From Pegea sp. RAD2-039 (Eukaryota > Chordata > Thaliacea > Salpida > Salpidae), in contig JAQGEQ010000299.1 of assembly GCA_034620365.1 (NCBI GenBank), positions 1 to 64,000 of the forward strand: a DNA stretch of 64,000 bases. Reading direction: 5' to 3'. The notes under the pieces are model-generated. The model was given only the letters and a program-made list of their open reading frames with translations. It had not been told where the DNA came from and ran no database searches. This document shows positions 3,660-47,315 of the stretch, piece after piece. Position 1 is the stretch's first letter; the number at the start of each line of letters is the position of its first letter. The translations under genes and the position numbers were made by a program.

Positions 3660-4600
3660 TAGTTTCAAGTAGCAACAAGTTTAAACTTTAATTATAAAAC
3701 TGACTTTTAAATGTAACAGATAAGTTTTCGATTTTTGAAAAATAATGCTTCGATTAAATGTAGTTTTAAATATTTAAATTTTGCAAAAGATTAGTTGAAA
3801 CAGATTTATAGTTGATTGATAAATGATTAAAAGGAAACCAAATTAAAAGTTTTTGAAACGAATGAAATAAAAAATTATGTTAATTCTAAAAATAGAACAT
3901 CTTTTCTTCTTAGATACAGATGACATACTATTAATTGAAAACTTTTAATCACCAGATTATGACACTATCCACAAACAATTGTTTCAACTGTAAGATGATA
4001 TACTCGACGTAATCGTTGAGATGACGTCATAAGCAGCTTGAAATTTACCACAACCTGTTGGAAGAGTTATTTGTGAAGATTAAGTCATAAAATTGAAACT
4101 TTTTCTTTTTACTGATTTTTTTACATAACTTTTTATGATCTAATTATTCAAAAGTGAAAATGTATCTAGCTTTAGAACCAACCAGCTAACTACCAAACCA
4201 ATTAGCTAGGTAACAAACCAGCTATCCATCTAGCTAACTATTTGGTTAATTGACAATTTTCTGTTGTTTGATTGAATCAAGAAAAATTTTTTTATCAACA
4301 GTCTATTTATTTAAAAAAAAGTAAATCTATATTTCAGACTAATGCATAAACCCAGCCCTCATCTCGACTTTATCTAACAGAGATAACAAATAAATAACAA
4401 TCAATTTCAAGTCTCTCAAGTAGAGGTATGACGTCATCAAGTCGATAAAACATCAGATGACCTCATCTTCGATCGCTGATCAATTTAAGATGCTTCAGAT
4501 GAAGATGAGGATCAGTTTATATGATTTGCAACGGAACATTAAAAAGAATTGAAAAAAAAATGAAAGAAAAGAAAAAAAGTGAAAGAAAAGAAATAAAAAA
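3660..4600. other. AT-rich spacer downstream of Set1
   Basis: No coding sequence is recognised. The stretch contains two TGACGTCATC motifs (about 4022 and 4428) and a short patch of repeated CAGCTA/TAGCTA words at about 4185-4245. It lies 3' of Set1 and probably includes its 3' UTR, but I cannot place the poly(A) site. Confidence 0.5.
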
Positions 4601-4602
4601 AA

Positions 4603-7600
4603 TCAATTCAGTGTTCCTCTGCAGTTGAAAGAGCCACAAAAGCACGGGATCTTCTCGTCTTCGATTGGAAACTTGTAATCGTAAGTGATTTCTTCACCCG
4701 CTTTTATCACATCTTTTGAATAAATCACAATCTTCTTGTTTCCGTCCACAGTAATCACCTTTGCATAACAACTCGGCTACAAAAACAAAACCAGCATGAC
4801 GTCATCAGCGACCCGATCATGACGTCATCAACTCACATTACACGAGTGGTTCATGAAACGCGCGAAGTTTCCACATTTAGTGGCATCGATGATGTGATCT
4901 TGATCGATACGGAATAGATAAGAGGAACCAATCCCTCGTTTGGTGTAAACCATCTCGCGTCGATCAGCAACCAGTGAACGAACCAGTTGACCAACATATT
5001 CAATCACCATTTCATCAGCTGCGATGGTTTCTTCGGCAAATAATCCCCAACCATGAATTCGACTTCGCTTGAACTTCACGCTCTTCTTTCGATACTATAA
5101 ACACGATTGATAAGGCGACGATGACGTCATCAAGTGATTGCGTCACCATCAGTTGGTTGTATTTGATGAGGTCGGAGGTTTCGGCGCCGAATTCCGACGC
5201 GATTCGTCGCATTATGTGACGAGCTTCGCGCGACTTCTCCACCGTTTGACCGGAAGTCATCGTCGAACCACTTCCGGTTGTGACGTCATTACCCTGATGA
5301 CCAGCAAGACCACGTGATCGCGGAATCGTGTTGTCTGCTTGGCGACACATCAGGCTTCGTTGTTGCCGTTTCACTTTCGCGTTCAGCTTGTAGTAACCTG
5401 TAAGAAGCGGCGATGACGTCATCGTGGTTGTCGTCATGACAACTTTGCGACTTAGCGCGCACTTACCTTCGGAACGCGCACATCCGGTTTTGTGTGGCTC
5501 GCTGATGACGTCATCTTTACGTTTGCGCTTGCGACCGCGTTTCCGCAATTTATCGTCACCGCCAGATGGCGTGCCGTCGTCGATGGTAACCTTGGTAACC
5601 GGGTGAGGAACCCAATGAGTATCATTCACCCAACTTTCCTGTCCATCTTCACACTTCAACATTTCTTCAAACTCCATCCGGATATACTGCGAATGACGTC
5701 ACAAGTTGATGACTTCAGCATCGATGAAATGACGTCACAACCGACCATCATATCCTCTAGATCGATTCCAACCTCCGTGATGTTCATCAAGATCGCATGT
5801 TCACTAGCTTCACTTCGACGCTCGAAACGTTTCCTTGGCAATACTTCTGATCGCGTTGATGACGTCACATCCGGTTTCTTTTCACGTCGCGACTTGACGC
5901 GCTCGGTGGAGATGGTCTGCGAGTGACGAAACGAGGCGTTGACGTCATTGATGATAATGACGTCACAACGCGCGCTACTCACAGTGGAGGGGAACATCCG
6001 GGCGGCTGGGTGCAAAGTTCTCTCTTGATAAAGTTTCGGACTCAAGCTGAAAAGAAGTGAGCGTGACGTCATCAGTGACGTAATAGAGATCAAGTGACCT
6101 GTAGTTGTGATCGATGAGTACGATGTCTTTAGGAAGAGGATTTGCGTAAGAATGTTCCTCAGCAATTTGAAAGATTTGATCTTTACGTTCTTCTTCTAAT
6201 CTCTTGTTTCTCCTCTGCGGATTCATCGCTGATGACGTCATCTGATCACGTGTCAACTACCTCACCTGTTGTTCGAGTGCTTCATGTGGTGATGACGTCA
6301 CCTGATGATGAGCTTTATGGAACGACAACAACGTCATCACCGCCTGAAGCTCATCTTCACTTTGCTTCCTTTTTTCGCCATCCAATCTGAAACGAAGCAA
6401 ATAGTGACGTCATCAAGCAAATAATGACGTCATCAAGCAAATAGTGACGTCATCAAGCAAATAGTGACGTCATCAAGCAAATAGTGACGTCATCACTTAC
6501 GGTTGTTTATTATCGAGATGTTGAAGCTGATGAAGATGACTTTCACTGTCTGATCTCACTCGCTCCGTCACCTGTCGACGACAAGAAGCGGAAATTATCG
6601 ATGACGTCATCATCGCGCCACTTACGTCAGCAAAGAAATCCAAATTGCTTTTTGATTCATCTTTTGAATAATATCGAAATCTTCTTCCTGGTTGAAGTTC
6701 ATCTTCATCATCAGGTGCAACAAAATCGTCGCTTCGCGCGTTATTTATGACGTCATCGCTGTCACGTGATGATGTCATCTTCAACTTTTTGTTGGGTGCA
6801 TTAAAGTCTATTACGTCATCGTCGCTAACAAGCAAGCGTCGTTTCTTGGCTCCACTTTTCATAATCTTCACAGGAATAATGACGTCATCAGTTTTTTATT
6901 ATATGATGACGTCACAACTAACCTCATCATCGGTGACGTCACTATCATTTGATTGGTCGTCTTCGGTAGTGATGTCATCATCAGAAGGACTAAAGACTTC
7001 GTCGACGTCTAATGGTACTGATGACGTCATCAACGCGTTACACACATGACTTCATCAGTAGTGACGTCATCTGCTCACCTCTTTTATCCTGGTAAGGATC
7101 GTATTCATCTTCCGCATCGTCATCTGATGACGTCATCTCTGACATCTCGCCATCGCTGTCTAGTTCGAGTACTTGATTGCGTTTTGACGTCATCATCGCG
7201 GCTTCTACGTCATCACTAACATCATCTTTCTTTCGATTCAGTCGGAAATCTACAACGAGAAGTGATGACGTCACACAAGATGGAAGCGGGGCGTGTGGGG
7301 CACCTTTATCCAATTTATTCTGATTGCCATTGGTAACGAGTTGCGGTTTCTTGACGCGAAACGACGGCATACCCGAAAGCGCGAATTTTAAGCTGACGCC
7401 GAGACGAAACCCATTCATGGACAAGCTGCCACCTTTCGCCCAATCGAGTGGATCGAAGGTCAACGCGCTCGAAGGCGGATGGGCTGGGGCTGGTTGTGAG
7501 GGCGCAGGGGCGAGGGGCACCTCGTTGCAAACTTGTAGCTTCGATTTAGATTGTTGTCGATCAAACCAATTCTCGAACTGTCGAAACGCGATCGTCTCCA

Positions 7601-10472
7601 CCATCTTTTTCATCAAATCGCGTTTGACGATTTCTTTTAATTCCATCGCGACGTTGTTGGAGATGATGGAAGTAAGGACGCGTCGCGGTTCGTCAGGGGC
7701 GGGAAAGGGGGCTCGTGGAAATATGTACCCAAATTGAGGTCGATTAGGGGGCATATTAGGGGGCCAAGGGGACCGGTGTGACCAGTCAATTCGTCCATTT
7801 GTGTCTGGACCAATAAATTGAGGTCTGGGCGGTGGTTGGGGCGGATAATTGGGTCGGGGTGGGAAGTTGGTGGTCGGTGGTAGGTTTGGATGAGGTCTGT
7901 GAGGGGGCGGGGGTCCTAACCGATGTCCAAAACGCGGTTGCTCGTTTCGAATATGGGGCCAAGGTCCACCTCGTTGACCCATCATAAACCTGTAAACAAG
8001 TGATGACGTCAGCACAGCGATCATGACATCATTCATCACAAACCTTTGAGGGAAAGGTGGAGGCCACATCGAGTTACCACCTGGCCAATTAGGACGCTGC
8101 TGACGGACAGGGAAAGCGGGAGGTGTCCCGAAGTCATGTGATGACGTCATCGGCGGGTGGAGGGCGGGAGGACGCGCGACGCCACCTAGCAGATGTTCAC
8201 TTTCACCCGACGAAATGTCCATATCCACCGATCCCACTGCCGAAGGTGGTTGCGCTTCCTGTAATCCACGTCATCAGCCAAAACTTCACTATGACGTCAT
8301 CGCTCACCTCAACTTCGCTACATCCGCTCGAAACGTTGTCAAGGGCAACAGGGGCGGTGGTAGGGGCCGGCCCCTCACCCACCATCTCGCGTAATCGCTC
8401 GTCCAACGTCAGTTGTGGTCGTTCGTCCTCATCTGCGGACGCAGGCGGTGATGACGTCACTGCGTCGGCAGCGGCAGGTGATTGTGACGTCACGTCGACG
8501 TGAGGGATAGTCGGGGGCGGCTGAAACCTGAACCATCGACAAGCGATTAGTCGGGAAGAGGGCGAAGAAGTCGCACCTGTCAGCGGCTTCGGGATGTGTG
8601 ACGTCACTGGTGAGAGGGGGGCGCGCGGTGAATTCACGAAATCGATCTTGAGGAGGTCTTTCAAAGGCAGGGAAGCGATGAGGACTTCGCGCGCGTCGCA
8701 TATAGTCGTTGTGAGGTGTAAAAGTAAGAGGACTTGATGGACGATAGACGCGTCGATCGAAATCGGGACGCACAAAAGATCTTGGAGGTGATCTTGTGAT
8801 TCGAGTATGATGAGGATCAAAATGAAGATCAGGTGCTGGAGGGAAGTGACGTAGACGATCGAAATCGCGATGAGGAGGTGACGCGATTCGACGTCCAGCA
8901 AATTGTTGATGATTTGCGAAAAGATGATGACTTCGTGACGTCATATCGATGTTGGAATGAGGCGCATATTTGATATGAGTTGGTGAAGTAGCAACAGTGA
9001 CGTCATCAGCGTTTCCATCAGATAGTTCACCATCTTCAAGATCTTCAGGCGTGAATCGCGACACCGGCGCTTCTTCTATTTTACTTCGCGCGTTTTTCTT
9101 GTGACGACTTCTTTTACTTTTCTTTTTCGATTTTTTTCGCTTCACAGTCGTCGCGTCATCTGAATCGCCATCTGCTGATGATGCCGCTGATTTGATGACG
9201 TCATTGTGATTCGTGTCTGATTTGTTTTTGTGTAGTTGCTATGGAAACAGCGAATGAGCGAAAGGCGGTTGCTACGCAGTGAAAGAAATACCCGCGCGTC
9301 GAAATCCTGAATCGGCTTCTGAACCGGAAAATTCAGCGCTATTTTTTCGATTTCCGGCGTCCTCCTAAACACAGTCACTTGTACGTCATCATGTGATGAC
9401 GTCACAAGCGCACGCACCTGACTTCGACCACTGATGGCTTCCGCTTCGGCTCGTTCCGCTTCACTGAACACGCTTCTTGTGAGTTTCTAATGACGTCAGG
9501 TAGTGAATCGCGAACCATCACTTTACCGTGCACGATTCGATTAAACAATCGCTTTAGCTCATCACCTGTGACGTCATGATGTCATTAATGACGTCATGAT
9601 TGACGTATATCACCCACCTTTGCTATCGATGACAGCAGAGATGACGTTACCCATCACAGGTGTCCCATCAAGTGATTTGATACAAAGAGATGCTGACTTG
9701 ATAGAAGTAAAAATTACCTGAAAAGTGGTCCACGAATGTTTAATGTGGACAAGGTATTTTAAATGTGGGTCAGGCATTTTAAATGTGGACCAGAGACGTT
9801 AATTGTGGAAATAAAATGGTTGGCCACCTAGTGGTTGAAAATACAAACCTTAGCAAGTCCAAGATGTTGACTGGTTTTAGGATGTTTATAAATCTTCACT
9901 CTTTCTAATTCCCCATATTTCATACACATATTCTTGATAAAATCTTCTGTTATATTGTCATTTAAGTTTGAAAATGTGATTTCTAAAGGTGGTAGGTTAT
10001 CAGTGGAATTTTCATCGATCTGTTGATGAAGTCATGAAAGAAATTTGTGAGGAATTTTCACCAATTATATTTCACCTTATATCTTGGAATACGTAAATCA
10101 AGAACAGGTCTCTCCTTTATCTTTGAATATCTCAATCTAGGGTCAGAGACTATAACTTGTGGGCAGATATGTCCCTGAGATAAATAATTTATTAAATTAT
10201 TGAAAATAAAACCAACTTTATTAGAAGTTCATTTAGATAAAAGTTGATTTAATCAATTAATTATAATACTATATTTGATAGTAACACAAAAGTGACCAGC
10301 TTCTAGACTACTTGCAACAACCAATCATAAATTGTGTTCAATGGAGCGGAAAGTAAAGATAATAACAAACCTGGTTATTATAAGATTCACCACAATACCT
10401 TACTAACTTTTGCTGACCTTTTTTTAAATATGGATCAACTAATAGTTTAAAATCCTTGGGTAAGCCTTCCAT
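4603..10472 (-). CDS. SETD1: Set1/SETD1-type histone H3K4 methyltransferase
   Basis: Multi-exon gene for the catalytic subunit of the Set1/COMPASS complex, which methylates histone H3 lysine 4 in the nucleus. The start at 10472 opens with [18 protein letters not shown], the SETD1 N-terminal block. An RRM follows (exons 10076-10174, 9849-10019, 9618-9717; [19 protein letters not shown]). Next come a long Arg/Ser/Pro-rich region (about 8040-9200), a proline-rich exon (7303-7990) with the conserved [14 protein letters not shown] helix, an acidic region, and the N-SET block ([12 protein letters not shown], about 5630). The SET domain is on exons 4837-5094 ([15 protein letters not shown]) and 4603-4776 ([14 protein letters not shown]), with a post-[11 protein letters not shown] and the terminal GTLN shared with human SETD1. 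Exon borders near 9190-9290 are uncertain. Introns and exons are packed with TGACGTCA. Identity is secure. Confidence 0.95.
6402..6500. repeat. 20-bp tandem repeat in a Set1 intron
   Basis: Five copies of TGACGTCATCAAGCAAATAG run head to tail, with one base change in the second. The array fills most of the intron between exons ending near 6500 and starting near 6390 on the minus strand. Each unit carries one complete TGACGTCATCA motif, so the array is a local expansion of the motif scattered across the whole gene. Confidence 0.97.
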
Positions 10473-10479
10473 TTTCTAA

Positions 10480-13400
10480 TTGACCGAATATACAATAGCA
10501 AATATGTGTACTACTAATTATAAAGCTCTGATGTTTAAAAGCAGTGAGTTTTTCTTATTTTTTTTTATACTTTTTTTCCTGCAGAACTTTTTTATTATAA
10601 GAATTTTTTTCTACACTTGTCAGAATCTAAGAGCATCTACAAAAAAAGTCTTTTTTTATTCAAAAAAAAATTGTAAGGACCCAACATAAAAATAAATCTA
10701 CACTGAAATTGTAATTTAAATTTAGAAAAAGCTAAAAACTTATAAACAAAACCAAGAAAAAAAATCTCGAAGTAAATATATTTTCTCATCTTGTTTTAAA
10801 CAAAACAATCTCATTTTTCTTCAAGTATATGAACGATTTCATGAAAATATCAAAGCTTACTTAAATACAAACTAATTTCGTAATAATTTCATTTATTAGT
10901 TTTAGGCTTAAAAAAAGCAAATGTTTATTCAAATCCTTAAAACTGATCTAATATTAATAAAAGTTGTTATTTTTAATCAGTTAAAACAAACATTTTCCAA
11001 AATTCTAAAAGTATTAATAAATTGATAAAATCATAATTTTTATTATAAATGTTAAAAAAACATAACTACTATTTTTTAAAGCAGCAAATGTATAATATTA
11101 AACCAAATAAATTTATATAAAAACAGAATAATGACCACATTAAAAAATAAACAAAAACTTAAACAGCTTATCCTCAAATTCAGTTTAAGCATGAGAAGAA
11201 AAACAAAAAAAAACTTGATTCAAAATATTATTATTAAAAATGTTTATAGATTTTATTATTTATAACTAAAAAAATATTATTTTTCAATTATTTTCAACTG
11301 ATATTTATGAATTTTAGAGTATTAAGAATCATTTTATAATAAAACTGCTACATACTAAAATCAATAATTAATTAATAACAAGTTCAAACTTTAGTAGAAC
11401 AGAAATTTATATCCAAATTTAAAACATCAACATTCAAACAATATGAAGCAACTTAAATATCAAATTTTTAACCAAACATATACTATTTCACATTTATTAA
11501 ATTTTTCTATTTATAATTTTGTCTAAAATATCCAAACAGAAAATACTGAGAAATTAAAATTAGTGAATGAAATATTATTTATTTTTGAAGAAACAAAAAA
11601 AAAACAGATCAACAATTTAAGAATAAGAAATTTATTTACTATAACATTATCTATTGTTTCAGTAAAAGTAATTCTTTATTAATTCACTAATAACTGAAAG
11701 AATTATTCATTTATTCTAATAACTGAAAAAACCAACTATTATTCATTTATTCAGTACAAAACCAACTATTTTTCAATATATAGACTTTGTCCTAATAAAA
11801 ACTACATTATAAACTTCTATTAACAATATAAGCTTTATGATGGACGTATTAGAAATAATTTAATATAATATAAATACAAGAAAACTTTGCTATTTAACTA
11901 CAACACAAAATAAATAAGTATAGCTCGAATATGAATAATATATTTTATAAATAAGCTGATTCTAGCTAGAATATACCTTTCTAATACATACTATAACTAA
12001 AAATGCTATTTTGAAATCATAAGAAAAAAGCAAAACAAAATCGGCACTACGAGGCCTATACTTGCAACAAGAACGAATATTTGTCGTTGTCTTCAATAAT
12101 TCGGCATTCTGAGACAGAATATTAAAAACCCAAAAACGTTTGCAACTTTAAAACCGTAAATATTGAAATATTTAACCTAACAAATAGAAACTAAAACTAG
12201 GCAATTAGAAACTAAATTACTTATACATTTGATTTAATTCTAGCACGCTAATATTAGTCTATAACAAAAATATCAGCTTTACATTTTCCTATTTTAAATA
12301 AGTTACAGAAAAATATTTTATGACTTTTAGTACTATGAAACAAACAAGCAATAATTATAATTTATACATTAAAAAATCAAAAAAGAGAGAACGTACATGA
12401 TACTCTCAAAGAAAATTCTTCAAAAGCTACATCTTTCTTAACCAATAAGCTAAAGATTTGTGCCAGACAAGTTTTTGGGGTTAGTTTTGTTGGCAAAGCA
12501 GTTTTGCAGAAGCTCCACAACAGCTAAACTAACGTAACAAATTATTTGAACAATATTTGGTTGCTCTTTGGGATTTAACCAAGGATTGTTTGTGTTGTAC
12601 CTCTAAGTTTTTGACAATCTGCACGATTTGACAATCACACATTAAAGACTGGGAATAAAAAATTGAATAAAAAATTATCATTTTTTTTAATTTGAAAAGA
12701 TTTTTTTCAAATGATAGCTCACATGTTAGGAAAAGTTCGGTTTTTCCTAGTTTATTTCCGAAAGTTTTTTAAAGGAAGGATAACTTTTAACAATTAAAGA
12801 ATTTAAAAAAGTATTTCTTATATATGTTTGAAAAGTTGTTATCTTTATTACGTTTTAAGTGTAAATTTAAAAACTCGAAATATTATTTTAAACAAAATTT
12901 CTAAAAAATTTATCTAAAATCATTTTCATTTGTAAGTAGAACGGATAGTTTAGTAAATATTTATTGTATAAATAAAAATTTATTGAAAACTTAACATAAT
13001 TTAATGGTAAGATTTTTAAATATTAGTTTGGCTCATTACCAAATCGTGATAATAGTTATAAATCAAATAAACGAATTAACAATTTTTAAAATTTTGTAAC
13101 TCTGATTTAAACTTCTTTAATATTTCATAATTTATTGTTTCAAAATTTTCGACATCTTCTACTTGTTAATTTGTAACCTGATTGAAAAGCTTTTTATCTT
13201 TTAACTTTAATGGATTCATAAATATGTCCCAAAAAAATGTAAACAAGAACAACTTAAATCCCGCCAATTTAACATTTTTTAAAGCTGATATTCTAGCACA
13301 AATATGGCGTAATTCACTGATCTTCTTAATCAACAGCAATTGTTAACTGAACTTTTTTTTTCTGATCCAGGTAAATCCTTCAAAATTATGGAAAAGTAAT

Positions 13401-14400
13401 TTATTTGAAAGTTGTAATAGTGTCGATAATTTTTCAATACTTGATGAGTTTGTTCAGACCAAAAAATATCAATTCTCCTTCTATCTAATAGTAAGAATTT
13501 TGTTAACTTAGACATTTGCTATAAACTGCTAGAAGCTTAAACCATCTCAACTAACAAGCAAAGGATTTTCACGCAGAAAATTGATAAACATTTGATGGAA
13601 TGATGCTTGTGTTTTTTCCCACATGAAACTAAAGCTGTAATCGCTCTACTGCGTAGGCGAATTGAGTTTATTGATTTCACTTTTTCAGAGTTTCTTTTTA
13701 CCAATTCAAGCATGACTCTTAGAAAAACCTCTTCAAAAGTTCTACTTTCGTTTCTTGTGTCATCTTGTAAAGCTACAAATTATTTAATTTATAAAAACAA
13801 AACTCAAATAATTTGTAATCTAAGTATTCTAAACCTTTTTAGTTTTGGTATTTTCTAATAAACGCTAAAGCTTGTTTACTAACTGCAAACTTGTTAACTA
13901 AAAGCAGAAGGATTTTGGATGAAACACAAGTGGAGTGAATTTGCTTGATGTAGCATCAAAATCAATTCTAATATTTCATGAATATTGCATCATTCACTTT
14001 GATGGCGATTTGGATAAACTTTCTCAACCATGATAACCTTATATCTAATTTTAACAAATTTTTAATATTTTGTTTTCTGATTTTCAGCAAAATGATTTTA
14101 TCCATCAATGTTTTGTTGAACTTCCAAACTAACAATATCTTCAAAGTATTTCGTTTAATTATTTCGAAATGTTTTTAAATCTTCAAAAAGAGCTGTTTAT
14201 TGAAAATTATTTCAACTATGAATCAGTTTGGAAAAATTTCAAATTCATGAAACCGTTTTCTGTTTAAAAACAAATTAACTTGTAATACATATCAGAGAGT
14301 GACTTCAAGTAGAAAAAGATCTTTTCAAAATGAAAATTCTTTGAAAATATTTCATGCTTCATTAACTTTGCAATCCGATCGTGATCGAACCCTTTGTTGC
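10480..14400. other. AT-rich intergenic stretch, no gene seen
   Basis: About 4 kb of very AT-rich, low-complexity DNA lies between the divergent Set1 and microseminoprotein-like starts. Open frames of 60-85 codons (for example 10480-10689, 13330-13515, 13607-13858) are rich in Phe, Leu, Lys and Asn, lack splice partners and resemble no family I know. I see no tRNA, repeat array or mobile element. Confidence 0.6.
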
Positions 14401-14562
14401 TATGCAGTGATGACGTCATAACAGACAACTTTTAACCATCCACAAATTTCTCAGGTAATTTGAGAAAAGAAAAAAATCTTTTTTTTCTTCTTCATCTGTG
14501 ATTGTTAAAAACTTTATATCGAAAATCATTTTGAAGACTTGCATAGTAACAAAAGTTAAAAG

Positions 14563-15062
14563 ATGAGGTCGCGCGCTTTCGGGGCGCTTTCTTTGGCGTT
14601 GATGCTGAGTTTAGTGAAAGCTCAGAGTGGTTATGATCTAGATGAAGGAGATCCATTCGACAATTTGTTACATCGAAGTGGTGAGGTGTTTATCAGCGCT
14701 AATTATCTGCCTTATGAGAACCGATGCTGGATACGAAGAGGTGGCGTGCGTTTATGACGTCATCAAACAGCTGACTTGTCATTTTCAGATAAATCGCTTT
14801 GTCGTGTTCATCGATCGCGCGTTTGGTACAACGGAATATGTGAAAAGTGTCATTGCTCGAGAAAAAATCACGTGACCTGCTGCACTACGTGAGTATGTGA
14901 CGTCATCGGTAACCTAGCAACCATGTTGGTTTTTATAGAGTGAAGAAACCAATTGATTTTCCGGCAGATTGTATTCCTTTGTTTGATGTCGCGCGTTGTA
15001 GCGTCGTGCTTCGATTACGTAAGGACTTCTCGGTGCCATGCCTTAATCGTATTCCTTACTAA
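14563..15062 (+). CDS. Secreted microseminoprotein-like 10-Cys protein
   Basis: Three exons (14563-14740, 14789-14888, 14939-15062) splice in frame to 133 residues. The N-terminus (MRSRAFGALSLALMLSLVKA) is a clear signal peptide. The mature part has ten cysteines, as beta-microseminoprotein does, with the family landmarks C-x-C after a W-Y-N-G-I-C stretch, an adjacent CC pair, and a final Val-Pro-Cys. The alternative acceptor two bases downstream of 14939 would give an early stop, so I chose the first. The two introns are 48 and 50 nt, and both contain TGACGTCATC. The function of this family outside vertebrates is unknown to me; a secreted extracellular role is inferred from the signal peptide and the disulfide-rich fold. 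Confidence 0.75.
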
Positions 15063-18000
15063 TTTGCTAATAATAATTTTTGTTCCCTTGCAACCATTTT
15101 GAAACTAACTTAATGATCATTTGAGTTCAGTCAAGCGTGACGGGATTGAGCCTCACGTTGTCTTCTTTTTGAAATATTCTGTATACAAATATTTCGACGT
15201 TTTTATTGCGAACATTTTTGATAAATGTCATCAATAAATCGAATTGTCATGACAACAAGCTGGTTTCAAAATTTGAAAAGTTTTATAGTTTTTATAAAAT
15301 TTAAAAAAATGAAAAAGACCAAAAAAGTCAGAAAAATTTGGAAAAGCTTTCGGTTTCACTTCATAAAGTTTTAAAAATCTTGGAACAAAAACGGGAAGCT
15401 TGAAAACCACAAAAAAAAACCAAAAAACCTCTTAAGCGTAGTAAAAATGAAATTATTAACCTACAAAGCAAAAATAAATTATTTTTTTTTCCACTTTTTG
15501 ATATTTTTGTGAATTAAATATCAAAAAAATAAATAAAATTGAAAGATTTTAGGTTGATGAATAAATTAATAAAATTGTTATTTTCACTATTTTAGAAATA
15601 TTTTGTTTTTGCAGAAAAGTTTTTATGAAATTCTCCTTAAAATTTTTTTGCAAATTTTCAGATTTTTGAAATTTCAAAAATGTTTTCATAATTTTTCATT
15701 TATATAAATAAGTTTGCAATCAAATATTATAAAATTAAAAAATATAATTCAAATTGTTTTTGTTTGTAATTGATTTTATTTATTTCTTATTATAATATTT
15801 TTATTTCCTTATCTTTATTCGTTATCTTTTTTAAATTAGTATTTTGTAAAGTTTGAATTAAAAATATTTTTGAAAAGTTTTTTTAACTGGAATTGAAATA
15901 ATTTTTCTTAATTAAGATATATAGATTATGACTCTTTAAAATAATTATCTTGAAAATTGTAAAATTTTTTGTAAAATTTTTTGTAAGTTGGCAATATATA
16001 AGTTTTTTTTCAGAATTTGTTATTATTAGGAACCTAAACAACTTTAGAACCAAAATATTCAACCTATATAAATTTCACAAATAATATTATGTTTTGTATG
16101 AGACTTAATGACCATTTTGTAAAAATTGTTCCTAAAATAAAAATACGTCTTCAACAATTATTTAAATAATTTTTATTAATTTTAGAAATGCGCAAATTTT
16201 TCTGAAGATTGGAAATTATATTTTGATATAAAAATTTTGTTTTGCAAAAAGTTTAATTAACCGAACATCACTATTGACTGTAAGATTACATCAGCTTAAA
16301 GATCTTTAATATTTTGTTAAACAGATTTTTATGAATATTTGAAATAAGTAAGCGGAAAACATATGCTAGAAAAGTTATCTTTATATTTCTAATATTATCG
16401 CAATTCAGTTTATTTAGCTTTAATTGAATAAAAATATTAAAATAGAAAACAATAAATTAAAGTAATAAATCGAAATGTTGAAGTACAAATAACTAACAAC
16501 TTGAAAGATCTGCTTGATGTTTAAGATGTATAAGAATCACTTAAACTATTTCTCAGTGTAATGATCTAACGACTCAATGTCACTATTCTATTTAAGCATA
16601 CAAGATAGAGAGTCGTACTTATCACACTTGAAAATCCCTAGCGGTAGTGATCAGTTCCGGAGAACATGGAAGATCTGAACCTTCACTCTTATAAATGTAC
16701 ATTACAAATTTAGGGTTAAAAGAACCCGAACGAAAACATTCATGAGTGAAATGCGCGCTTTTACCCCTTCGCTGTTCACGATGTCTCCTCATTCCACTGG
16801 CTCTTCCTTCGAATCAAACACGTAATCAAGCAGCTCCTAGCAACGCGTAATTAGTGCAAAGTCACCTTACAACCACCAACCTTATCTAGTTTCCAAGGAT
16901 TGAAATTCTTTTTCGACGCTATGTTCCGTAAATGGGTGATTAGCTTTTATTTTTTTGTATATTTCTTTCTTGCCGGAGACTGTAAGTTTTTTGAAGGTTT
17001 TTTAGACATACTGGTAATAGTAAAAAGCCAACTAATCTGGTTTCAATCTATTCTTGGAATATTCTGTAAGCGAGAAAATATAATTGACACTAGCAGTTAA
17101 AAAGTAAATACAAAAACTTGGAATTGAATTGAACCGTTCTTGATTGGTCACTGACCCTTTTTTCATCTACCTGGGCGAAAATTTGTTAGGACACTGCATT
17201 TCTAAGCAACAACCTCTATACTAGAGAAGGATCGAATCGGGAAATAATGTCGGATACAAAAGATAAAAAATGTTGAGTCGGCTGCTGATATCCTACAAGT
17301 ACAATCACAAAACCATCGATTATTCCGTCACAAATTTTTCACTTCGTAGATACAATTATCCGAAGATTAGATATTACTTAGTACAAAGTCACTGTAGTAC
17401 CTTAGTATTAGTAAAATTTAACAAATTAAGGAAGTACAAGACCTCAGAAGTGACTATTTAGTCGAATTACTAAAAAAAGTCTTAAATTAGAATGCTAAGC
17501 CTTATAGTGGACTAAAAGGTACCCCAGCGTTAGGAAAGTGGAAAGCTTTGACAGAGATAGGGAGAAACTAGATTCCAGGGATTAGCTTTAAAACCGCTAC
17601 GCTATGAAAGTTAGTACATAGCTGCATTTGTAGTCAAATAAAGATTTGTCTCAATATGTGAGCTACTTGCGGCTTAACTATCAGAGAATATCGACGAGGA
17701 AGAAGAAGAGGTGATGCGGACTGACGCTCTAGGTAATCAACACCAATCACTTCTCTTTTCTTGGGTGACAAGGAACACATCTCGAGAAAATTATATTTTC
17801 ATGCCGGGCTTGAAATCTGATGTTTCACGAATCATTTTCATTTAAAATTTAAGGACTATTCCTGAAGATTTGAATCTGCTAATACAGATTGCTACATATC
17901 AAAAATATTTCTTTTACTAAATAACAAAGATTAATTATTATTTTTTAAAATTTATTAATATTTTCTTTATTGGATACTAGTGAAAAACCAATGTAATATT

Positions 18001-19200
18001 TCTTAAAAATATTTTCAAAGTTTCATAATTAATTTTAAACATTTTTTTTCAATAATTTATTAAACAGTTTTAGATCGTTCTAGAAAAGCACCAAAATTTA
18101 ACTAGAAGCACTTTTCGAAATTCAGTTGAAGTTTAAACTTTTTTCCTTTTCAAGTATTCTTTATTTATATTATTCTAGAAGTATTTTATTTTATAGCTTT
18201 TTATCATACAATTTTTTTTATAGATATGTTTAACAATTTCACCTAATTCAAAAAATCATTTTCATATTTCTTAATTAAGCTATTTCCTGGTTTAAAAAAA
18301 TGATATCAAACAAAAGTTTCAACTTGAATAATATGTTATTCATGAAAAGTTACAACAAATTTGAAAGATATTATCTTAGATTTTATATTTTATACCTTAA
18401 TAAAATTAATTTTAGAATATTGATAGATTTATCTAACTTTAATATAAGTTTATAATAATATCTCTTACATTTGTGTGAATAATTCTAAATTATCTGTTTA
18501 TTTAATTTATATTGTCAAGGTTATATAAACCTTAATTTAAAGTAGTTTTTCAATTTGAAAATTTAATGATATTTATATTATTATAAGATTTGAACTTCAG
18601 TTTATAGTTGATTTTTCAAAGTATTTTTTATTATAAGTTTTTCAAAAGTTTTTTAACTTTTGTAGAAAATATAAAATTGGCATAGAATAAAAATATTATT
18701 ATTTTATAATGTTAGTCTTTTCTTATTGTTTTTATATTTCTTTTAATTGTCTTCATTCTGAATACTTTTATTACATAAAAAATTACCAATATATAAACAT
18801 TATGAGTTAGTTTCTATAATTATCAAACTTATTAAGATTTATATTAAGTTGATAATAATTTACCAAAATTATTCATTTTATGAATTTAATTTTGAGTTTT
18901 AAGTTAGATAATAATTTCTATACTTATAAATACTTTCCAATATATATATTTTTAAATTATTAAGTGACCTTATTTGTTAGTAAACAAGTAAGTTAGTTAA
19001 GTCAAAATAAAAGTTTGATAATCTTTTTTTTCTACTAACTTTGTTAAAATTTAAATTATTATTTTTTAGTTTCACCAACATTTTTATAAAATACGAATTT
19101 AAGTTTTGAGTTCTTTTAATTGTTTCTAAAAGTATTTAAAGACATTTGTAATTTTATATAATCAATTTTTCTGAATTATTTCTCTTATATTTTAAGGTGT
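15063..19200. other. AT-rich intergenic stretch, no gene seen
   Basis: Mostly poly-A/T-rich low-complexity DNA. A patch at about 16600-17800 is more balanced in composition but broken by stops in all frames. It could be a decayed gene or element, but I recognise no motif. Short open frames at 16900-17100 and 17270-17461 have no support. Confidence 0.55.
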
Positions 19201-19235
19201 AATTAGATTTTTTAGGATTTTTTAATTTCTCCAAA

Positions 19236-21389
19236 ATGTCAGCACCAGTTTTAGTACTCAGTGAGTTTTAAATAAATCTCAAATTTCATCTTTTCATCTT
19301 CACTATGCTTTCAGATCCTAATTCAAAGCGTGAAAGTGGAAGAAAGGTCCAGATAGGCAACGTGAGCGCTGCAAAGGTCAGTTTCACCTCAACTCACTTC
19401 AGCTGTCAATCAAACTACAATTTTATTTCAGAATATTGCTGACGTCATTCGCACTTGTCTTGGACCTCGTTCAATGTTAAAGGTGCGTCACGCTTCAGTG
19501 ATTTCAGCTTTTGATTGACTCTTCGACTTTATCAGATGTTGATGGATCCCATGGGAGGTATTGTGATGACAAACGACGGGAACGCGATTCTTCGCGAGAT
19601 TACAGTCCAACATCCAGCGGCAAAGACTATGATCGAGATCAGTCGAACTCAAGATGAAGAAGTTGGAGATGGAACTACATCAGTTATCATACTAGGTACT
19701 TCCCCCTCTCCGCGCCCCCTTCTTTCATCTTATGACGTCATCAACAGCGGGCGAGATGATGTCAGCGGCTCAGAAGTTTCTGGAACAGAATATGCATCCA
19801 ACCGTGATCATTTCAGCTTATAGAAAAGCTCTGGAAGATATGCAAGCCATTCTAGATGATATAAGGTGCCCCAAACGCCCCAAGTCGCCCCAAATTCATT
19901 AATTTGCTTTTTATAGTGTCACAGTTGATACCAAGGACCAATCAGAGATGAAGAAAATCGTCAAATCAGCGATTGGCACGAAATTAATCAACCAATGGTG
20001 TGATCTGGCTTGTGAGATGGCTATCAAGTCGGTTGCCACGGTGATGGTGGAAAACCCAGCAACTGGAGCACGAGAGATCGATATTAAGCGATACGCGAAA
20101 GTCGAGAAGGTTCCTGGAGGTTCAATTGAGGACTCTAAGGTCTTGGATGGTGTGATGTTGAACAAAGATGTTACTCATCCATCTATGAAGCGAAAAATAG
20201 AGAAGCCGCGCGTCTTGCTGCTTGATTGTGGACTCGAATATCAGAAGGGCGAGAGTCAGGTGATCGCGTTTTTTCCTTGTGACGTCACTAACGCGAGGTT
20301 GTAGACTGATCTGGAATTGAGTAAGGATTCCGATTTCGAACGAATCCTTCAAATGGAAGAAGAATACATTAAGCGCGTGACTGATGACATCATCAAGTTA
20401 AAGCCCGATCTCATCTTTACCGAGAAGGGCATTTCCGGTGAGTGACGTCATCAGATGCGCGATGAGATGACTTTATGAGTGTTTGTAGATTTGGCGCAAT
20501 ACTATTTAGCGAAAGCTGGTATCACAGCTATTCGTCGCGTCCGTAAAAGTGATAATAATCGAATCGCGCGCGCTTGTGGCGCTACTATCTGTTCGCGAAC
20601 TGAAGAAGCGGAAGAAAGCGATATCGGAACTGATTGTGGATATTTTGCGGTCAAGAAGCTGGGAGATGAATATTTCACCTTTTTGACCAGATGTAAGGAC
20701 CCCAAAGCTTGCACCATCTTACTGAGAGGAGCTAGTAAAGATATCTTGATGGAAATTGAACGTAATCTACAAGACGCGATGCAAGTCGCGCGCAACGTCA
20801 TGATCAACCCTAAGTTGTTGCCAGGCGGTGGCGCTGTTGAGTTGGCTTTGTCACAGGTTGGTTGCTAGGTGGTTGTGATGGTTGGTAAGTGATAGTTGGT
20901 TGTAGAAAATGTTGGAGAAGGCGAAATTAATGACTGGAGTTGAACAGCATCCTTATAAAGCTGTCGCGCATGCGCTCGAAGTCATACCGCGCACGCTTCT
21001 ACAAAATTGTGGTGCTTCTACTATTCGTGTGCTGACTAAACTTCGAGTGAGTTTTCATTTTCTGCCGGCTTTCAAGCATCTTAACCCCGCGTACTTCTGT
21101 TTGAAAGGCCGAGCATGTCAAATCTGGTAAACTAAGTTGGGGTGTTGATGGTGAAAGCGGACAGGTTTGCGATATGAACGAGCTTCAGGTGTGGGAACCT
21201 CTTTCCGTCAAATTACAAACCTACAAGACTGCTATGGAGGTGACGTCACTTGTTTGTGTGTTGATGACGTCATAATAAGGTTATTTGTGACAGACGGCGA
21301 TGTTGTTATTAAGAATCGATGACATCGTGTCAGGGACGAAAAAGGCTGAAGGTCAGGAAGGAACTGGCAACACCGCGCCTACACAGTAA
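19236..21389 (+). CDS. CCT3: T-complex protein 1 subunit gamma (CCT3)
   Basis: Gamma subunit of the cytosolic TRiC/CCT chaperonin, which folds actin, tubulin and other proteins using ATP. Eleven exons (19236-19260, 19315-19376, 19432-19482, 19536-19695, 19748-19865, 19917-20259, 20305-20437, 20489-20856, 20906-21046, 21108-21239, 21294-21389) join in frame to 542 residues; human CCT3 has 545. Landmarks: RTCLGPRSMLK, DPMGGIVMTNDGNAILRE, the ATPase motif GDGTTS, QMEEEYIKR, LPGGGAVE and LLLRIDDIVSG. Introns are 46-61 nt. That after 19865 starts with the shared C-rich donor sequence, and those after 19695, 20259, 20437 and 21239 contain TGACGTCA. The gene is convergent with ANKEF1. An AATAAA lies at 21452-21457. 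Confidence 0.98.
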
Positions 21390-21451
21390 CCACCCACACG
21401 CGCGCGTTTTGTCGATCGTGCTATGACGTCATTGTTTGATTATTTAGATGT

Positions 21452-21457
21452 AATAAA
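21452..21457 (+). terminator. Probable CCT3 poly(A) signal
   Basis: A canonical AATAAA hexamer lies 63 bp after the CCT3 stop codon, in the 515-bp gap before the convergent ANKEF1 stop. Confidence 0.55.
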
Positions 21458-21904
21458 ATATTTGCTTCTTGTCGATTCAGTTACTAATTGCTTCAACACC
21501 TAATTGTAAAAACTCCTCGCCAAACAACAACTTAGTTGAACATGAAGAAATCGCGTCTAGTGGTCAGAAAGCGCGTTGCTATAAGAAACAGAACACCTAC
21601 TTCGATACCAGTGTTATCGAGAACCAAGTTTTAATAAGCGTTTGGTGGTTTAAGGTGCTGAGGACTCACTTGGTTCGAACAGATGCCACCACAGACGCAC
21701 TAAGCTATATGGTTGTCATGGTGACAAATAAAAACAAACTTCTTGCTTCAATTTTATTACAAAAATTTTTCCAAACCGCTTTCGATAAAATTATTGCTAT
21801 GACGTCACTAGCGACGTAATGACGTCATCGTTCAAATGACATGGTTGCGTAGTAGGGACAGTGACGGTAAATGATTGACAGTTAGATGAGGTTGACAAGA
21901 CTAG

Positions 21905-24900
21905 TTAACTCTTTGCTTGAAATTTATCAATGATCACATCGATGTTCTGCTTCAGTGGTTTCTTATATGAATCGAAATCGATTTCATCTCCATATCGGCT
22001 CCGATCATCTTTCTTCGCCAGCATTAAGTCCTCTGTTGTCGGGTAACTTGTCCAATTCTACCGAGCAAAATTTAATCGATAAAATTTCTAGGTTTTATGG
22101 GGAATTTTACCGGGCTGGGGTTTTTGGGCAGATTCTCGCTTTGAGGTCTTTTCCCAAAATCGTCTCTGACGTCATCAGAGCTTTTTTCGATCACATTTCG
22201 CTCTTCCAGCTTCTGTATGATCTCTCTAGTCTTCAAATCATCTTCGGTGAGATTTGGATCAATCTAAAATAGAAACTTTATCAAATTGTCTGCCTCGATT
22301 TAAAAGTGCCCCACATTTTTTAGAGGTGGTATGTTCAGGGGCTTATTAGTAGCCGGTCGTTGGTTGCCTTTTTTATCTGGTTTCGGTTTTGGTACCAAGT
22401 CAAATCTGTTTTTGACCATATTGTAGATCTTGGACCCGGCCCACTCCTGGGCCACATCCACAGCTGTTTTATCTGCATCGATTTTTGGGTCAGTTTACTT
22501 GTCTGGTCATTTTCTGGTCACCTTTTTTATTCTTTAAAGTCACATTAACTCCACAATCAAGAAGAAATTCGACCACATTCGTCTTTCCGCTTTGAATTGC
22601 TCTCATCAAAGGGGAAGCCCCGTTCCACGTTCGCGCGTTTCCATCAGCACCAGCAGCCAACAGCGCCTTCAAGTGACCAATAATCAATTTGGGTCAGAAA
22701 CAAAAAAAAGACAAACGTACATGGACCACATCTACTTGTCCACAATGAGCCGCGTGGTGCAATGGGGTCCATTTAAAGTTGTCTTGGGCAAAAACACTGG
22801 CCCTGAAAACCAAACCACAACTAATGACGTCATAAAGCGATGATGTACTCACCCCTTTGACAACAGGAAGTTGACCATCGAAATGTTGCCCTGACTACAA
22901 GCAGCCATCAGGGCGGTCTTATAGTACTTGTCTCTCGTGTCCACATGTGTCCCGTTCTGTAACAACCAGTCATCACTACAAAACGGCTTCTCACAGAAAT
23001 GGTTCACTAACTTCGATTGCTTCGCGCACAGTGATGACGTCACCGCTCTTCGCGGCTTCAGTGATGCTAATGAATCGCTTTTCAGCTTTTTGTAAATACC
23101 AATTCGAGTCATCTTCAAACGCGTGCTTCGGTTTGTGGTCCCTGTCACAAACTGATGACGTCATTCCATCACCGATGCGTGACGTCATACCTGCTGAAGC
23201 GTGTCGTATCGGTGTGTAGAAATTGCTGCTCAACAAAGCGGAACGGTGGACCGCCATCTGGCCTTCTCGGTGGGTCATTGTCAACACATATTGGCATGGC
23301 AACCTTGGTGGCGCCCTTACCCCTACCTCGGCCCCCTTTCTTGCCCTTTTTACCTTTCTTTTTTCGCTTTTTGCCACCATATGACGTCATCAGCGCTTGT
23401 TTGGTGACGTAACGTTTGCCAGAAACAAATTCATCGATGTCAATGACGTCACGTCTCTCTTTGTCGTGAAGCTGCGTGAAACAGCGTTGATGACGTCATA
23501 ACATCGTTGATTATGTCATCATTTACTTCAAAGATCTTTTTTTTGTGTTGCTTGGGTAACGGAGCTTGCATAGCAACGAGTAGTTCTTCCATATCCGCCC
23601 TAGCAACCAACCGCCCTTTTTTTATTTCACTTCCTTCCAAAGTACTTAAATCTATCACCTGAAACTTATGACGTCATGTTGATGACGTCAGTAAGACGAA
23701 TGACGAAAACCTTTTCAAGTAGACGTGACACAAGTTGTTCTTGATGCTCAAACACCCAATCATAAAGTCGTATTTGAGGTAACTGTGGGTCATCTTCACT
23801 TCGCTTCTTCTGCATCTTTTCAGCGCGCCTCAGCACTTTAATCATCGCTTTCTTCGCGCCTTTCTCCTTAGCAACTGCTCGCGCTGTCTGCCCCTTGTTG
23901 TTTTTCTCCAACGGATTCGCTCCTGATACAACAGCTGATGACGTCATCAGCGACGCGTGTGCACTCACCTCGTTGTGCTAGGAACTTGCATATGGCTGGG
24001 AAAGCCCCTTCTACAGCGTAGTGAAGCGCGCTGTTGCCATAGTTATCAACACTCAGCGGGTTCACTCCATATGCGCACAGCGCCTTCGCTCACAAAAGAG
24101 CAATGACGTTACAGTGACGTCACGAACGCACGCTCACCTGAATCGCTTTGAGGTTTCCTGATTTTGCTGAGTGATGAAGAGGAGTTTTTTGGCGGAAATC
24201 CCCTAAATTAGGATTAGCGCCGTTTTGTAGAAGCGCGCGAACGACTATTTCACTTCCAGACAGACACGCCACTGCTAGCGCTGATCGTCCACCGTCCTGA
24301 CGTCATCACAGTCACGTGACTTGTCATATATTACATCACTATCACCTTTTCGACCACATTGGGGTCGGCGCCCTTTTCCAGTAGCATCAAACACATGTCC
24401 TGACCTTCAATCGATTTCTCGCACGCGATCACCAGCGACGGGCGAAAACTTTGTGACGTAGTATTCGCGTCTGCACCATATGACAATACGATGTCCAAAC
24501 AGCGTCGATGACGTCGTGTTGGTGATTCAAGACAGTAGGTGATGACATCTATGAATGGTTAGGATTAGATACGGTGGGGCGTTGGGGTGTTTGGGGCACC
24601 GTTTCCGTCGACATCGCGTAGTAACATGTCCGCGCGATTCTTCGCTAACATTTCGACGGTTTTGTGATGACCACATTTTGCTGCAACCATCAAAGGTGTC
24701 CGACCTGAAACCACAGCTGATTAGGACAAGTGGACAAGTGGTTGTTTAGACCTTTAAAGTCCTGGACATCTGGAAAAGCTTTAATGTTGATGAGGTAATT
24801 GACCAGTTCTGATTTGTCATCGATTGCTGCCAGATGTAGCGCGCTGTCGCCATCTTGTGGTTCGCGATAATTGATTAATCTGAAGAAGAAGATCTTGATG

Positions 24901-25047
24901 TCGGGATCGATTTGGAGGTGACGTCACTCACGATGGGATCCCATGCTCAATGAGACTTTCTATTTCAGCTCTGTTGTCATGACGAACTGAATGGAGAAGT
25001 TTGTAAACTTGCAGAATTTCTAATCTGGTTGTTGCCGTGGTAACCAT
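21905..25047 (-). CDS. ANKEF1: Ankyrin-repeat and EF-hand protein (ANKEF1-like)
   Basis: Sixteen exons splice in frame to 754 residues, close to human ANKEF1 (776). The order is an N-terminal ankyrin block (GDSALHLAA, GRTPLMVAAKCGH, GGRSALAVACLSGS, KTPLHHSAKSGN, GNSALHYAVEG), an EF-hand-like segment on exons 23527-23658 and 23191-23471 with loop DKERRDVIDIDEF, a lysine/glycine-rich basic stretch, a second ankyrin block (YKTALMAACSQGN, WTPLHHAAHCGQ, ASPLMRAIQSGK), and a charged C-terminal tail. The start at 25047 gives MVTTATTTRLEILQVYKLL. This ankyrin-EF-ankyrin order is typical of ANKEF1, a protein of ciliated or flagellated cells. Introns are about 45-70 nt, many with TGACGTCA; the one at 24549-24599 is a 51-nt C-rich-donor intron. 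The exact acceptors at 22666 and 22472 are the least certain. Confidence 0.88.
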
Positions 25048-25079
25048 AGTTGACACAAATTTCAAAACATTTCAAAACA

Positions 25080-26095
25080 CCTAAAAAAGAAAAATTCTTA
25101 AAAAACAAATCGTCAATTTTCCTGAAAGTTGCTTCAAAAAGCCTTAAATTACAAACTACGATTAAAACTGACTAAAAAACATCGATTTTTGACAACATAA
25201 GTATTTCATTAATGAAAGAAAAACAAGAAAACGCGAGAATGGTTGCCACGGTGATCAGCTGCTTCACGCTTCGCTGCCTTCAACTTCAACTTTTTCATAA
25301 ATTTCTCTTTTTCTCGAATGAGAAACGAAAAAGAGAACAAAAAGGTTTTTGGCAATTGTAAATACAAGCTAAGTCAGCAGATTTTATCATATAGCCGTCT
25401 AAGCTGCCAGCTTCAACACTTTTCGAAGTATTAACTTCGATAATCGCCATAGCAACCGGATTAGCTTTTCGACTTGGCTTTTTAATTTGTCAACTTTTGA
25501 CAAGATGTCAAAAAACTGGCTGAAAACCTCATTTCTTATCTCAAAACTATTTTCTTTATTTGTAAAGTTAAATTAGTTTTTAAATTAAATTCGAAATACT
25601 TTTTTTAGTTGAAAATAATTCTTGAAAATAAATTTTACTCACATAAATAAAAACAAATTAAAATCGAATGCTACTAAATAATCTGGTTAGCAAATCACTT
25701 GTCGATAGTGACGTCATAACAGCGATAATGACGAAATAAAAATCGGAAATTTTAATAAATTAATTCAAATCAAAAACTGTAATTTCTGAAAATTTAAAAT
25801 TTTAAAAACTTGTTGAAAACTTTTCAAGATTTTTGAGGCTTTTTCTTTTTGAAATACTTTTCTTAAAGCTCAATAAACAAAAGCTGAATTTATGTAAATA
25901 ACAAATTAAACAACAATTTATAAAAACTTTCAATTTTATTTCTACTTTAAACAGAATATTTGTTGAAAATTTAATATTTCAAACTTTTGTTGAAATCGTC
26001 CAAAATAGTTTCTTTTAGGTCCAACATCTACCACCTCAAAAGTGAGTAATCGTCCACCAAATTTTCAAGCTGTCAAGACATACATTTCTACACTG
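25080..26095. other. AT-rich region upstream of ANKEF1
   Basis: No coding sequence is recognised. The first 350 bp contain fairly balanced sequence that may hold the ANKEF1 promoter and 5' UTR, but I see no clear TATA element. One TGACGTCAT lies at about 25709. Confidence 0.45.
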
Positions 26096-31234: not shown

Positions 31235-31734
31235 TGGAGCTCAAAAACTTTAAGTTCTTTCAAAATTGAATCGATTTTTTTCAAATTTATCTATTTTCAG
31301 TCATCGATGGTTTAAGATTGAACATTTTGAAAGATTAAAAATAGTTTTTTTGGATTATAGAAAGCATTCAAATTTGTGAAAGATATAGAAATTATTTTCA
31401 AGTAATTTCGATGCTACAAAAAACGAAACATCTTATTATTACTTGATCAACAATTTTTATTCAACGATTTACTTTTGATCGAAGTTAGTTTAAAGTTTAT
31501 CAAAAATACAATTTGAATTAGATTTGAAAAAGTGTTTCAAACTACATTTTAATAAATTGTATAAAATAACTTCATGTGTAAGAGAGCCAACGAAAAATCA
31601 AACTCTATACATAAGTTAGTATGATATATTGGTAAAGCATAACACAATATGGGACACAATTAGGATTTATAAAATTATCAAATCAACCTTTCGAGCTTAT
31701 TCATTCCAATTTTCAGAAAATATTTAAATTTTTA

Positions 31735-45128: not shown

Positions 45129-47315
<2,187 letters not shown>

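Follow-up and report, generated by a model that had tools for sequence, protein, structure and literature searches.

Bacteria are known to carry super-abundant palindromes, for which, to our knowledge, there is no agreed explanation. The DNA uptake sequences of Neisseria and Pasteurellaceae are short words that have accumulated in coding DNA, leave traces in peptides, and are tied to transformation, and most cAMP-response element (CRE) sites of known function belong to promoters or enhancers. For cyanobacteria, one study gives about one highly iterated palindrome (HIP) per kb for HIP1 and the alternate HIPs (GCGATCGC) (PMC4390886). The periodic A/T clusters (PATCs) of Caenorhabditis elegans protect from germline silencing in worm transgenes, according to PMC7725773, and a review on the M26/CRE hotspots of Schizosaccharomyces pombe places the heptamer ATGACGT within a gene, with an ATF/CREB pair there (PMC9775316). 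Here we report that the palindromic CRE core TGACGTCA has accumulated within a minority of gene bodies in the salp Pegea sp. RAD2-039 (assembly GCA_034620365.1). The window referred to throughout is the 64-kb stretch at positions 1 to 64,000 of contig JAQGEQ010000299.1. The word appears to be a eukaryotic super-abundant palindrome that doubles as a known transcription-factor site; it goes together with gene bodies and CpG retention and lies within conserved protein domains. Among the results listed by open-licence literature searches, judged from the listings, there was no description of such gene-body accumulation of TGACGTCA and none of the 14-mer TGATGACGTCATCA.

Abundance and Distribution of the Palindrome

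The window contains 76 exact copies of TGACGTCA, whereas 100 dinucleotide shuffles gave a mean of 0.63 copies and a maximum of 2, which excludes chance as the origin of this density. The shuffles also agree with a sequence-only reading of the window, in which about one copy or fewer per 64 kb was expected at random. The copies are concentrated as follows.

4022 to 9596, no strand: first tract, 44 TGACGTCA in 5.6 kb, running through both exons and introns of a SET1-class gene on the minus strand
14411 to 14905, no strand: GC-richer small patch with three TGACGTCA, weakly modelled as a probable short gene on the plus strand
19440 to 25716, no strand: 24 TGACGTCA, beginning in a CCT3-like chaperonin gene
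21800 to 25716, no strand: remainder of this second tract, 17 sites in a gene on the minus strand whose repeats look ankyrin-like by eye, and in its flanks

The remaining five copies lie at 37708, 38229, 38256, 42973, and 60743, each within two bases of where the sequence-only reading had placed its handful of outliers. That reading had estimated about fifty copies at 4.0–9.6 kb, where the enrichment held at an exact count of 44, and about twenty-five at 14.4–15 and 19.4–25.7 kb, where 3 and 24 were counted.

Across the genome (105.7 Mb in 387 contigs, of which C249 begins with the window), TGACGTCA occurred 27,792 times, compared with 969 times for the reversed word. The extended form TGACGTCATCA was found 16,229 times on both strands against 79, and the 14-mer TGATGACGTCATCA 1,972 times against 0. 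A 15-base extension of the word gave 63 matches over 40 different contigs, so that a one-locus oddity is ruled out. Neither a genome count at the level of base composition nor an enrichment confined to one locus, the two outcomes that the sequence-only reading had named as fatal to its claim, was therefore observed, and the enrichment is confirmed as real and genome-wide. That reading had also described the word as present in both orientations. Because TGACGTCA is its own reverse complement, this can concern the flanks only, and TGACGTCATCA indeed occurs both ways (8,239 and 7,990 copies).

We compared the 24 palindromes of equal base composition with a central CG in 214 kb, consisting of the window, which supplied 76 of the 95 copies of TGACGTCA, and 15 stretches of 10 kb unselected for the motif. 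The other 23 palindromes were each present 0 to 10 times, the runner-up being TCACGTGA with 10 copies. The word thus lies vastly above composition, as HIPs do; its genome mean of 1 per 3.8 kb does not reach the HIP density. The distribution is clustered, with 1 copy per 127 bp in the first tract and peaks of up to 12 per kb, whereas 10 of the 15 unselected stretches had no copy and the other five had 4, 1, 2, 11, and 1 (19 in total). Fourteen copies form a gene-sized cluster at C1:1,209,948-1,215,007, and a wider domain at C1:1.987-2.245 Mb accounts for 66 of the first 100 TGACGTCATCA in the plus-strand listing. Besides the window, about 257 kb of the genome was sampled, in which loci L009, L010, and L025–L027 were picked for their many sites; L001–L008 contributed to none of the counts. 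Taking the 27,792 sites at an assumed 10–40 per tract, the tracts may number roughly 700–2,800 genes.

Extended Consensus

A consensus was derived from 188 TGACGTCA sites in motif-rich DNA, where 2.1 would be expected. The core was preceded by A or G in 93% of cases when both strands were counted, and A stood on a given side in 68%. The consensus widens symmetrically to the 14-base palindrome TGATGACGTCATCA, and composition is nearly flat more than 3 bp from the core. We take TGATGACGTCATCA to have the shape of a basic leucine zipper (bZIP) dimer site of the CREB/ATF/JDP2/BATF3 kind. Both the core and its R...Y flank preferences resemble the generally known consensus of CRE/ATF-CREB-JDP2 sites, so the identification of the word as a CRE/bZIP core in the sequence-only reading is strengthened. 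The difference from known CREs lies in number, with tens of sites per gene body here.

The deaminated form TGATGTCATCA occurred 1,146 times in the genome and was 14 times rarer than intact TGACGTCATCA. CpG-poor DNA free of the motif, 112 kb in all, showed no clear surplus of TGATGTCA (6 versus 3.9 expected). Because decayed copies show no clear excess there, the word seems never to have accumulated in such DNA, and decay from a once uniform distribution was rejected.

Other factor-like words, namely GTTGCTA, CACGTGAC, and CCGGAAG, weakly accompany motif-rich DNA. A second word family in these motif-rich genes, presumably RFX-like, was seen as minisatellite-like runs of CATAGCAAC...CACGTGAC units in tankyrase introns (L009) and of GTTGCTATGG at L010:5362-6171 (25 matches in L010).

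Placement in Introns, Exons, and Codons

The genes of the window that carry the word were modelled as follows.

4606 to 10031, minus strand: SET1-class histone H3K4 methyltransferase gene (SETD1), outer ends not fixed
4831 to 5094, minus strand: SETD1 exon with the SET domain (Pfam SET)
9831 to 10031, minus strand: SETD1 RRM-like exon (Pfam RRM_1)
6395 to 6495, no strand: tandem array within the first tract, 20-bp unit AAGCAAATAGTGACGTCATC, 5.1 copies
19236 to 21390, plus strand: CCT3-like chaperonin gene, spliced by hand into 11 exons separated by 10 introns of 45–61 bp
19696 to 19747, plus strand: CCT3 intron 4, site at 19733
20260 to 20304, plus strand: CCT3 intron 6, site at 20280
20438 to 20488, plus strand: CCT3 intron 7, site at 20443, adjoining the 5' splice site
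21240 to 21293, plus strand: CCT3 intron 10, sites at 21241, which overlaps the 5' splice site, and 21265

The best solved-structure match of SETD1 was an "H3 lysine-4 specific" methyltransferase (E 4.7e-31). Its model ran into a neighboring long interspersed nuclear element (LINE), and the first 4,100 coding bases alone entered the counts. The CCT3 domain is Pfam Cpn60_TCP1, and the subunit was named by eye. One frame of the ankyrin-like-repeat gene in the second tract was tested and matched no Pfam family.

Five of the CCT3 sites lie in introns totaling 525 bp, one in 1.63 kb of coding sequence, and one just downstream. Similarly, a tankyrase gene on contig C1, with ankyrin, SAM, and PARP domains, has 16 sites in 2.4 kb of introns and one in 3.4 kb of coding sequence. 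Introns in the models are about 50 bp long, and sites crowd into them. Exons are also filled with sites in the SET1-class gene of the window and in a BTB/ankyrin gene on C1; nine TGACGTCA fall in a single 194-aa frame that includes a BTB domain (L027:1124-1705), and the coding sequence of seven motif-gene models contains 57. The word therefore occupies both coding and non-coding DNA, as HIPs do. The gene finder was home-made, was trained on CCT genes, merges genes, and included a minisatellite in the model of a RIM-like gene; exon and intron tallies are reliable for CCT3, tankyrase, and L035.

Codon choice also favors the word. Asp-Val was encoded as GACGTC in 36 of 64 cases in seven motif genes, compared with 1 of 14 in seven motif-free genes, and Thr-Ser as ACGTCA in 26 of 64 compared with 0 of 15. 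For the motif genes, an expectation built from the codon frequencies of those same genes predicts 7.7% and 6.9%, respectively. Moreover, per residue, motif genes contain over twice as many of each of the two pairs as motif-free genes. Codon choice and the raised pair frequency indicate that the pressure acts at the DNA level and has probably altered protein sequences, in models of which some exon calls are uncertain. Like DNA uptake sequences, the word thus lies in coding DNA and leaves traces in peptides; those sequences differ in being bacterial and linked to transformation.

The orientation of extended sites in eight genes was 39 sense and 24 antisense (p 0.077; this count omits any site that follows another within less than 35 bp, as well as 14 sites with an extension on either side of the core, and 13 of the 39 sense sites come from one gene). 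There was no significant strand bias, and a splicing signal at the RNA level was rejected, with a weak strand preference still allowed.

Position Relative to Promoters

SETD1 runs for 880 bp and CCT3 for 207 bp before the first site appears. Tankyrase has one early site at 147 bp and the next at 1.9 kb, and an RFC1-like gene has sites at 296 bp and then at 1.3 kb. The 1.5 kb preceding the start codons of CCT3, SETD1, and the RFC1-like gene contained no TGACGTCA; for tankyrase, the upstream sequence covered 214 bp. These four genes with a modelled start are the few on which the promoter analysis rests, since the start of the minus-strand gene at 25.1 kb was a guess and the L035 model begins at the end of its stretch, so that distances in these two genes are uninformative. 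The promoter-proximal placement of a classical CRE was not seen, and sites run through gene bodies, as the sequence-only reading had recognized.

The ratio of observed to expected CpG (CpG o/e) upstream of these genes was 0.21–0.90. In the first bin of the gene it was 0.27 for SETD1, 0.46 for the RFC1-like gene, 0.49 for tankyrase, and 0.85 for CCT3. Later bins reached 1.0–1.5 in SETD1, 1.1–1.2 in CCT3, and 0.9–1.5 in the last two thirds of tankyrase; those of the RFC1-like gene stayed at 0.7–0.8, with one bin at 0.

CpG Retention and Gene Identity

CpG content separates motif genes from motif-free genes best. Coding CpG o/e was 0.80–1.36 in eight motif genes versus 0.63–0.87 in seven motif-free genes, and with every GACG and CGTC masked it was 0.71–1.12 versus 0.56–0.82. 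In the window, positions 4600–9600 had a CpG o/e of 1.37, or 1.14 after the same masking. Among 2-kb windows, those with at least three sites averaged 0.99 (n = 23) and site-free ones 0.63 (n = 91), the latter with a mean GC content of 27%.

Gene function does not predict the presence of the motif, because CCT3 has seven sites and five other CCT loci have none. Of eight further chaperonin loci, L035 (CCT) has two sites and the other seven have none (the five CCT loci, HSP60, and an intronless copy on C27). A control within the window was also free of the word.

45704 to 47162, plus strand: alpha-tubulin-like gene (Pfam Tubulin), no site, coding CpG o/e 0.66

The tally consists of these eight loci, CCT3, and alpha-tubulin; further chaperonin matches on C156, C169, C32, and C44 were left out. 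The site-bearing and site-free loci bear out the earlier claim that the word follows a subset of genes. The suggestion that it marks active genes as a class is not supported, since CCT3 and L035 alone carry it among the chaperonins and alpha-tubulin. Intronless Cpn60/TCP1 open frames were present at C27:76194-77705 (L036), which had the top score of the genome at 519 bits, and at C169:11968-13194; a retrocopy or a bacterial contig are candidate origins.

The genome encodes bZIP proteins, with 12 bZIP_1 matches that are all above the cut-off. It also has 11 DNA_methylase matches, and one locus that was read combines BAH and DNA_methylase domains, as in DNMT1; CpG methylation is plausible because DNMT1-like genes are present. 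Together with tankyrase, the RIM-like gene (assigned by eye), and the BTB/ankyrin gene, this gene content is animal-like. Searches of the genome gave no match for COX1 or for a rotifer spliced-leader sequence, and one for the arthropod cuticle family, run without a positive control, was likewise empty. At least seven full-length C5-methylase domains occur in intronless open frames of 832–873 aa, in score classes of 181–185 and 71–77 bits. C5-methylase loci include L051 (C249:1740001-1742600), C57:819728-826344, C32:10146-38173, and C52:9209-10639, with an inverted pair on C57. The intronless frames are perhaps retrocopies or element-borne methyltransferases.

Proposed Role and Alternative Explanations

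We propose, with a probability of roughly 0.4, that the tracts are gene-body docking sites at which bZIP proteins maintain a minority of genes in an open, unmethylated state, in a use like that of worm PATCs. In favor of this proposal are the bZIP-like consensus, the codon choice, the CpG retention of motif genes, the rarity of TGATGTCATCA relative to the intact form, the scarcity of sites upstream of genes, the lack of a significant strand bias, and the presence of bZIP and DNMT1-like genes. Point mutation would create CREB/ATF/JDP2-type sites along the bodies of these genes, mostly outside promoters, and the DNA-level pressure would retain them. A bZIP dimer bound at many sites per gene would then hold the body open and CpG-unmethylated in the germline, and with the tract as the cause, its genes would escape the CpG loss of the remaining genome, making it a sequence-encoded anti-silencing tract. 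CpG methylation of the word blocks the binding of CREB-type factors, and such a tract would for this reason be self-reinforcing. Like PATCs, the signal is distributed within certain genes only, along their introns and bodies, and the proposed use is anti-silencing. PATCs differ in being 10-bp periodic A/T clusters tested in transgenes; the word is not an A/T cluster but a CpG-bearing palindrome that enters exons too and is known from sequence alone. A broader proposal, which we consider rather doubtful, is that the tracts, largely missing from promoters, form a second, protein-altering DNA-level code defining a heritable, function-independent gene compartment exempt from CpG loss. Among four suggestions of the sequence-only reading, a chromatin mark of genes or a methylation-linked CpG site fits best once active genes are dropped from it, and a recombination or pairing motif is conceivable. 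Overall, its CRE core, non-promoter placement, and gene subset survive, and its active-gene class and mobile sequence do not.

Several observations weigh against the docking-tract proposal. The coding CpG o/e of the RFC1-like gene (0.80; 0.71 masked) and of the RIM-like gene (0.76 masked) overlaps the motif-free range, and 2-kb windows with one or two sites (0.65, n = 18) are as CpG-poor as site-free ones. In 2-kb windows of the sampled DNA, TpG/CpA was no higher where CpG was poor, which leaves it unproven that methylation caused the CpG loss. TGATGTCATCA exceeds its own control (1,146 versus 49), and therefore some decay of sites happens. Furthermore, a regulatory site has no need to enter conserved coding sequence, and its presence there favors a cruder and biased process.

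The main rival is such a process, a functionless by-product like HIP1 in which biased mismatch repair, templated repair, or gene conversion turns near-misses into TGACGTCA in particular gene bodies; we regard it as doubtful on balance. Both cases involve a short palindrome that greatly exceeds its expectation from composition, occurs in coding as well as non-coding DNA, and is suspected of a link to cytosine methylation. The invasion of coding exons, as in the BTB frame of L027, the peak density, and the independence from gene function fit this explanation, and the repair model of Elhai for cyanobacterial HIPs makes such a ratchet conceivable (PMC4390886). However, the case here is eukaryotic and confined to a subset of gene bodies, and its 14-base palindromic consensus corresponds to a bZIP dimer site and not only to a repair or CpG-methylation context. 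A ratchet should also leave intermediates, yet 9 of the 12 one-base neighbors of the core in motif-rich DNA were at about or below 1.3-fold expectation; TGATGTCA (29 versus 8.2 expected), TTACGTCA (17 versus 3.4), and CGACGTCA (8 versus 1.4) were moderately enriched.

Very dense ordinary intragenic enhancers or chromatin-loop anchors with CRE-type sites are less likely than either the docking tract or the repair by-product, and we consider them improbable. They would account for the bZIP consensus and the accompanying factor-like words, and PMC12221973 describes methylation-sensitive motif loop anchors in ctenophores, partly intronic. In contrast, the sites cross exons for kilobases, and they are absent from the five other CCT genes, whose expression presumably parallels that of CCT3.

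A role in meiotic recombination, with determinants of the fission-yeast M26/CRE type bound inside genes by an Atf1/Pcr1-like bZIP pair, ranks likewise below those two readings, and we give it little credence. With the preceding A, the word does contain the M26 heptamer, and M26 works inside an open reading frame; the same review states that CREs are not all hotspots (PMC9775316). GC content at third codon positions (GC3) was high in CCT3 (0.46) and SETD1 (0.44), as recombination might leave it. However, it was not raised in the tankyrase, RABGAP-like, RFC1-like, and RIM-like genes (0.29–0.33), and hotspot alleles are normally converted away, whereas the word has accumulated. Since GC3 (0.29–0.46 in motif genes versus 0.31–0.36 in motif-free genes) is clearly up in CCT3 and SETD1 only, GC-biased conversion as a general cause was rejected.

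Spread of the word by a mobile short element, introner, or minisatellite seed is very improbable, because the 188 sites share no sequence beyond 3 bp from the core and the word-bearing arrays, which occur on many contigs with units of 15–32 bp and mostly different spacers, account for local copies and not for dispersed ones.

The mobile-sequence suggestion of the sequence-only reading is therefore abandoned for dispersed copies, which the unrelated flanks indicate arose by point mutation and not by transposition. One 49-bp tankyrase intron with the word is present twice, and the other word-bearing tankyrase introns are unlike one another apart from the word. A genome search with positions 4600–7000 of the window found no second copy of the stretch, the matches being to its tandem array only. 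The arrays point to ready tandem expansion of word-bearing DNA, not to spread of the word by this route. Ten arrays, drawn from 14 array stretches and themselves found by similarity to the word, were compared by column; word columns tended to vary less than spacer columns (0.039 versus 0.072; p 0.12), with the lower value in 6 of the 10. The loci L037 (C220:44100-44788) and L044 (C221:45450-45986) carry a nearly identical TGACGTCA array and flank at two contig ends with different unit orders, and are perhaps two alleles of one expanding array.

Because CCT paralogues with and without tracts share one genome, selection, repair bias, and methylation escape could be separated by standard assays.

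Other Features of the Window

LINE fragments with endonuclease and reverse-transcriptase frames were recognized by eye at 1626–3593 (plus strand) and 26522–29550 (minus strand), with pieces near 43.8–44.3 and 51.3–51.7 kb. The contig begins with a tandem array of 19 copies of a 31-bp unit (1–591). A multicopper-oxidase gene (Pfam Cu-oxidase_3) lies on the minus strand at 31398–36204. Upstream of it, repeats that are cysteine-rich and look ShK-like by eye were noted, and one of these falls within a 217-bp tandem duplication at 35736–36135. A further array at 38342–39463, inside a stretch of strong GC skew, consists of 59 copies of the 19-bp unit TTGATTGACAAGTAGTTAG that are 96% alike.

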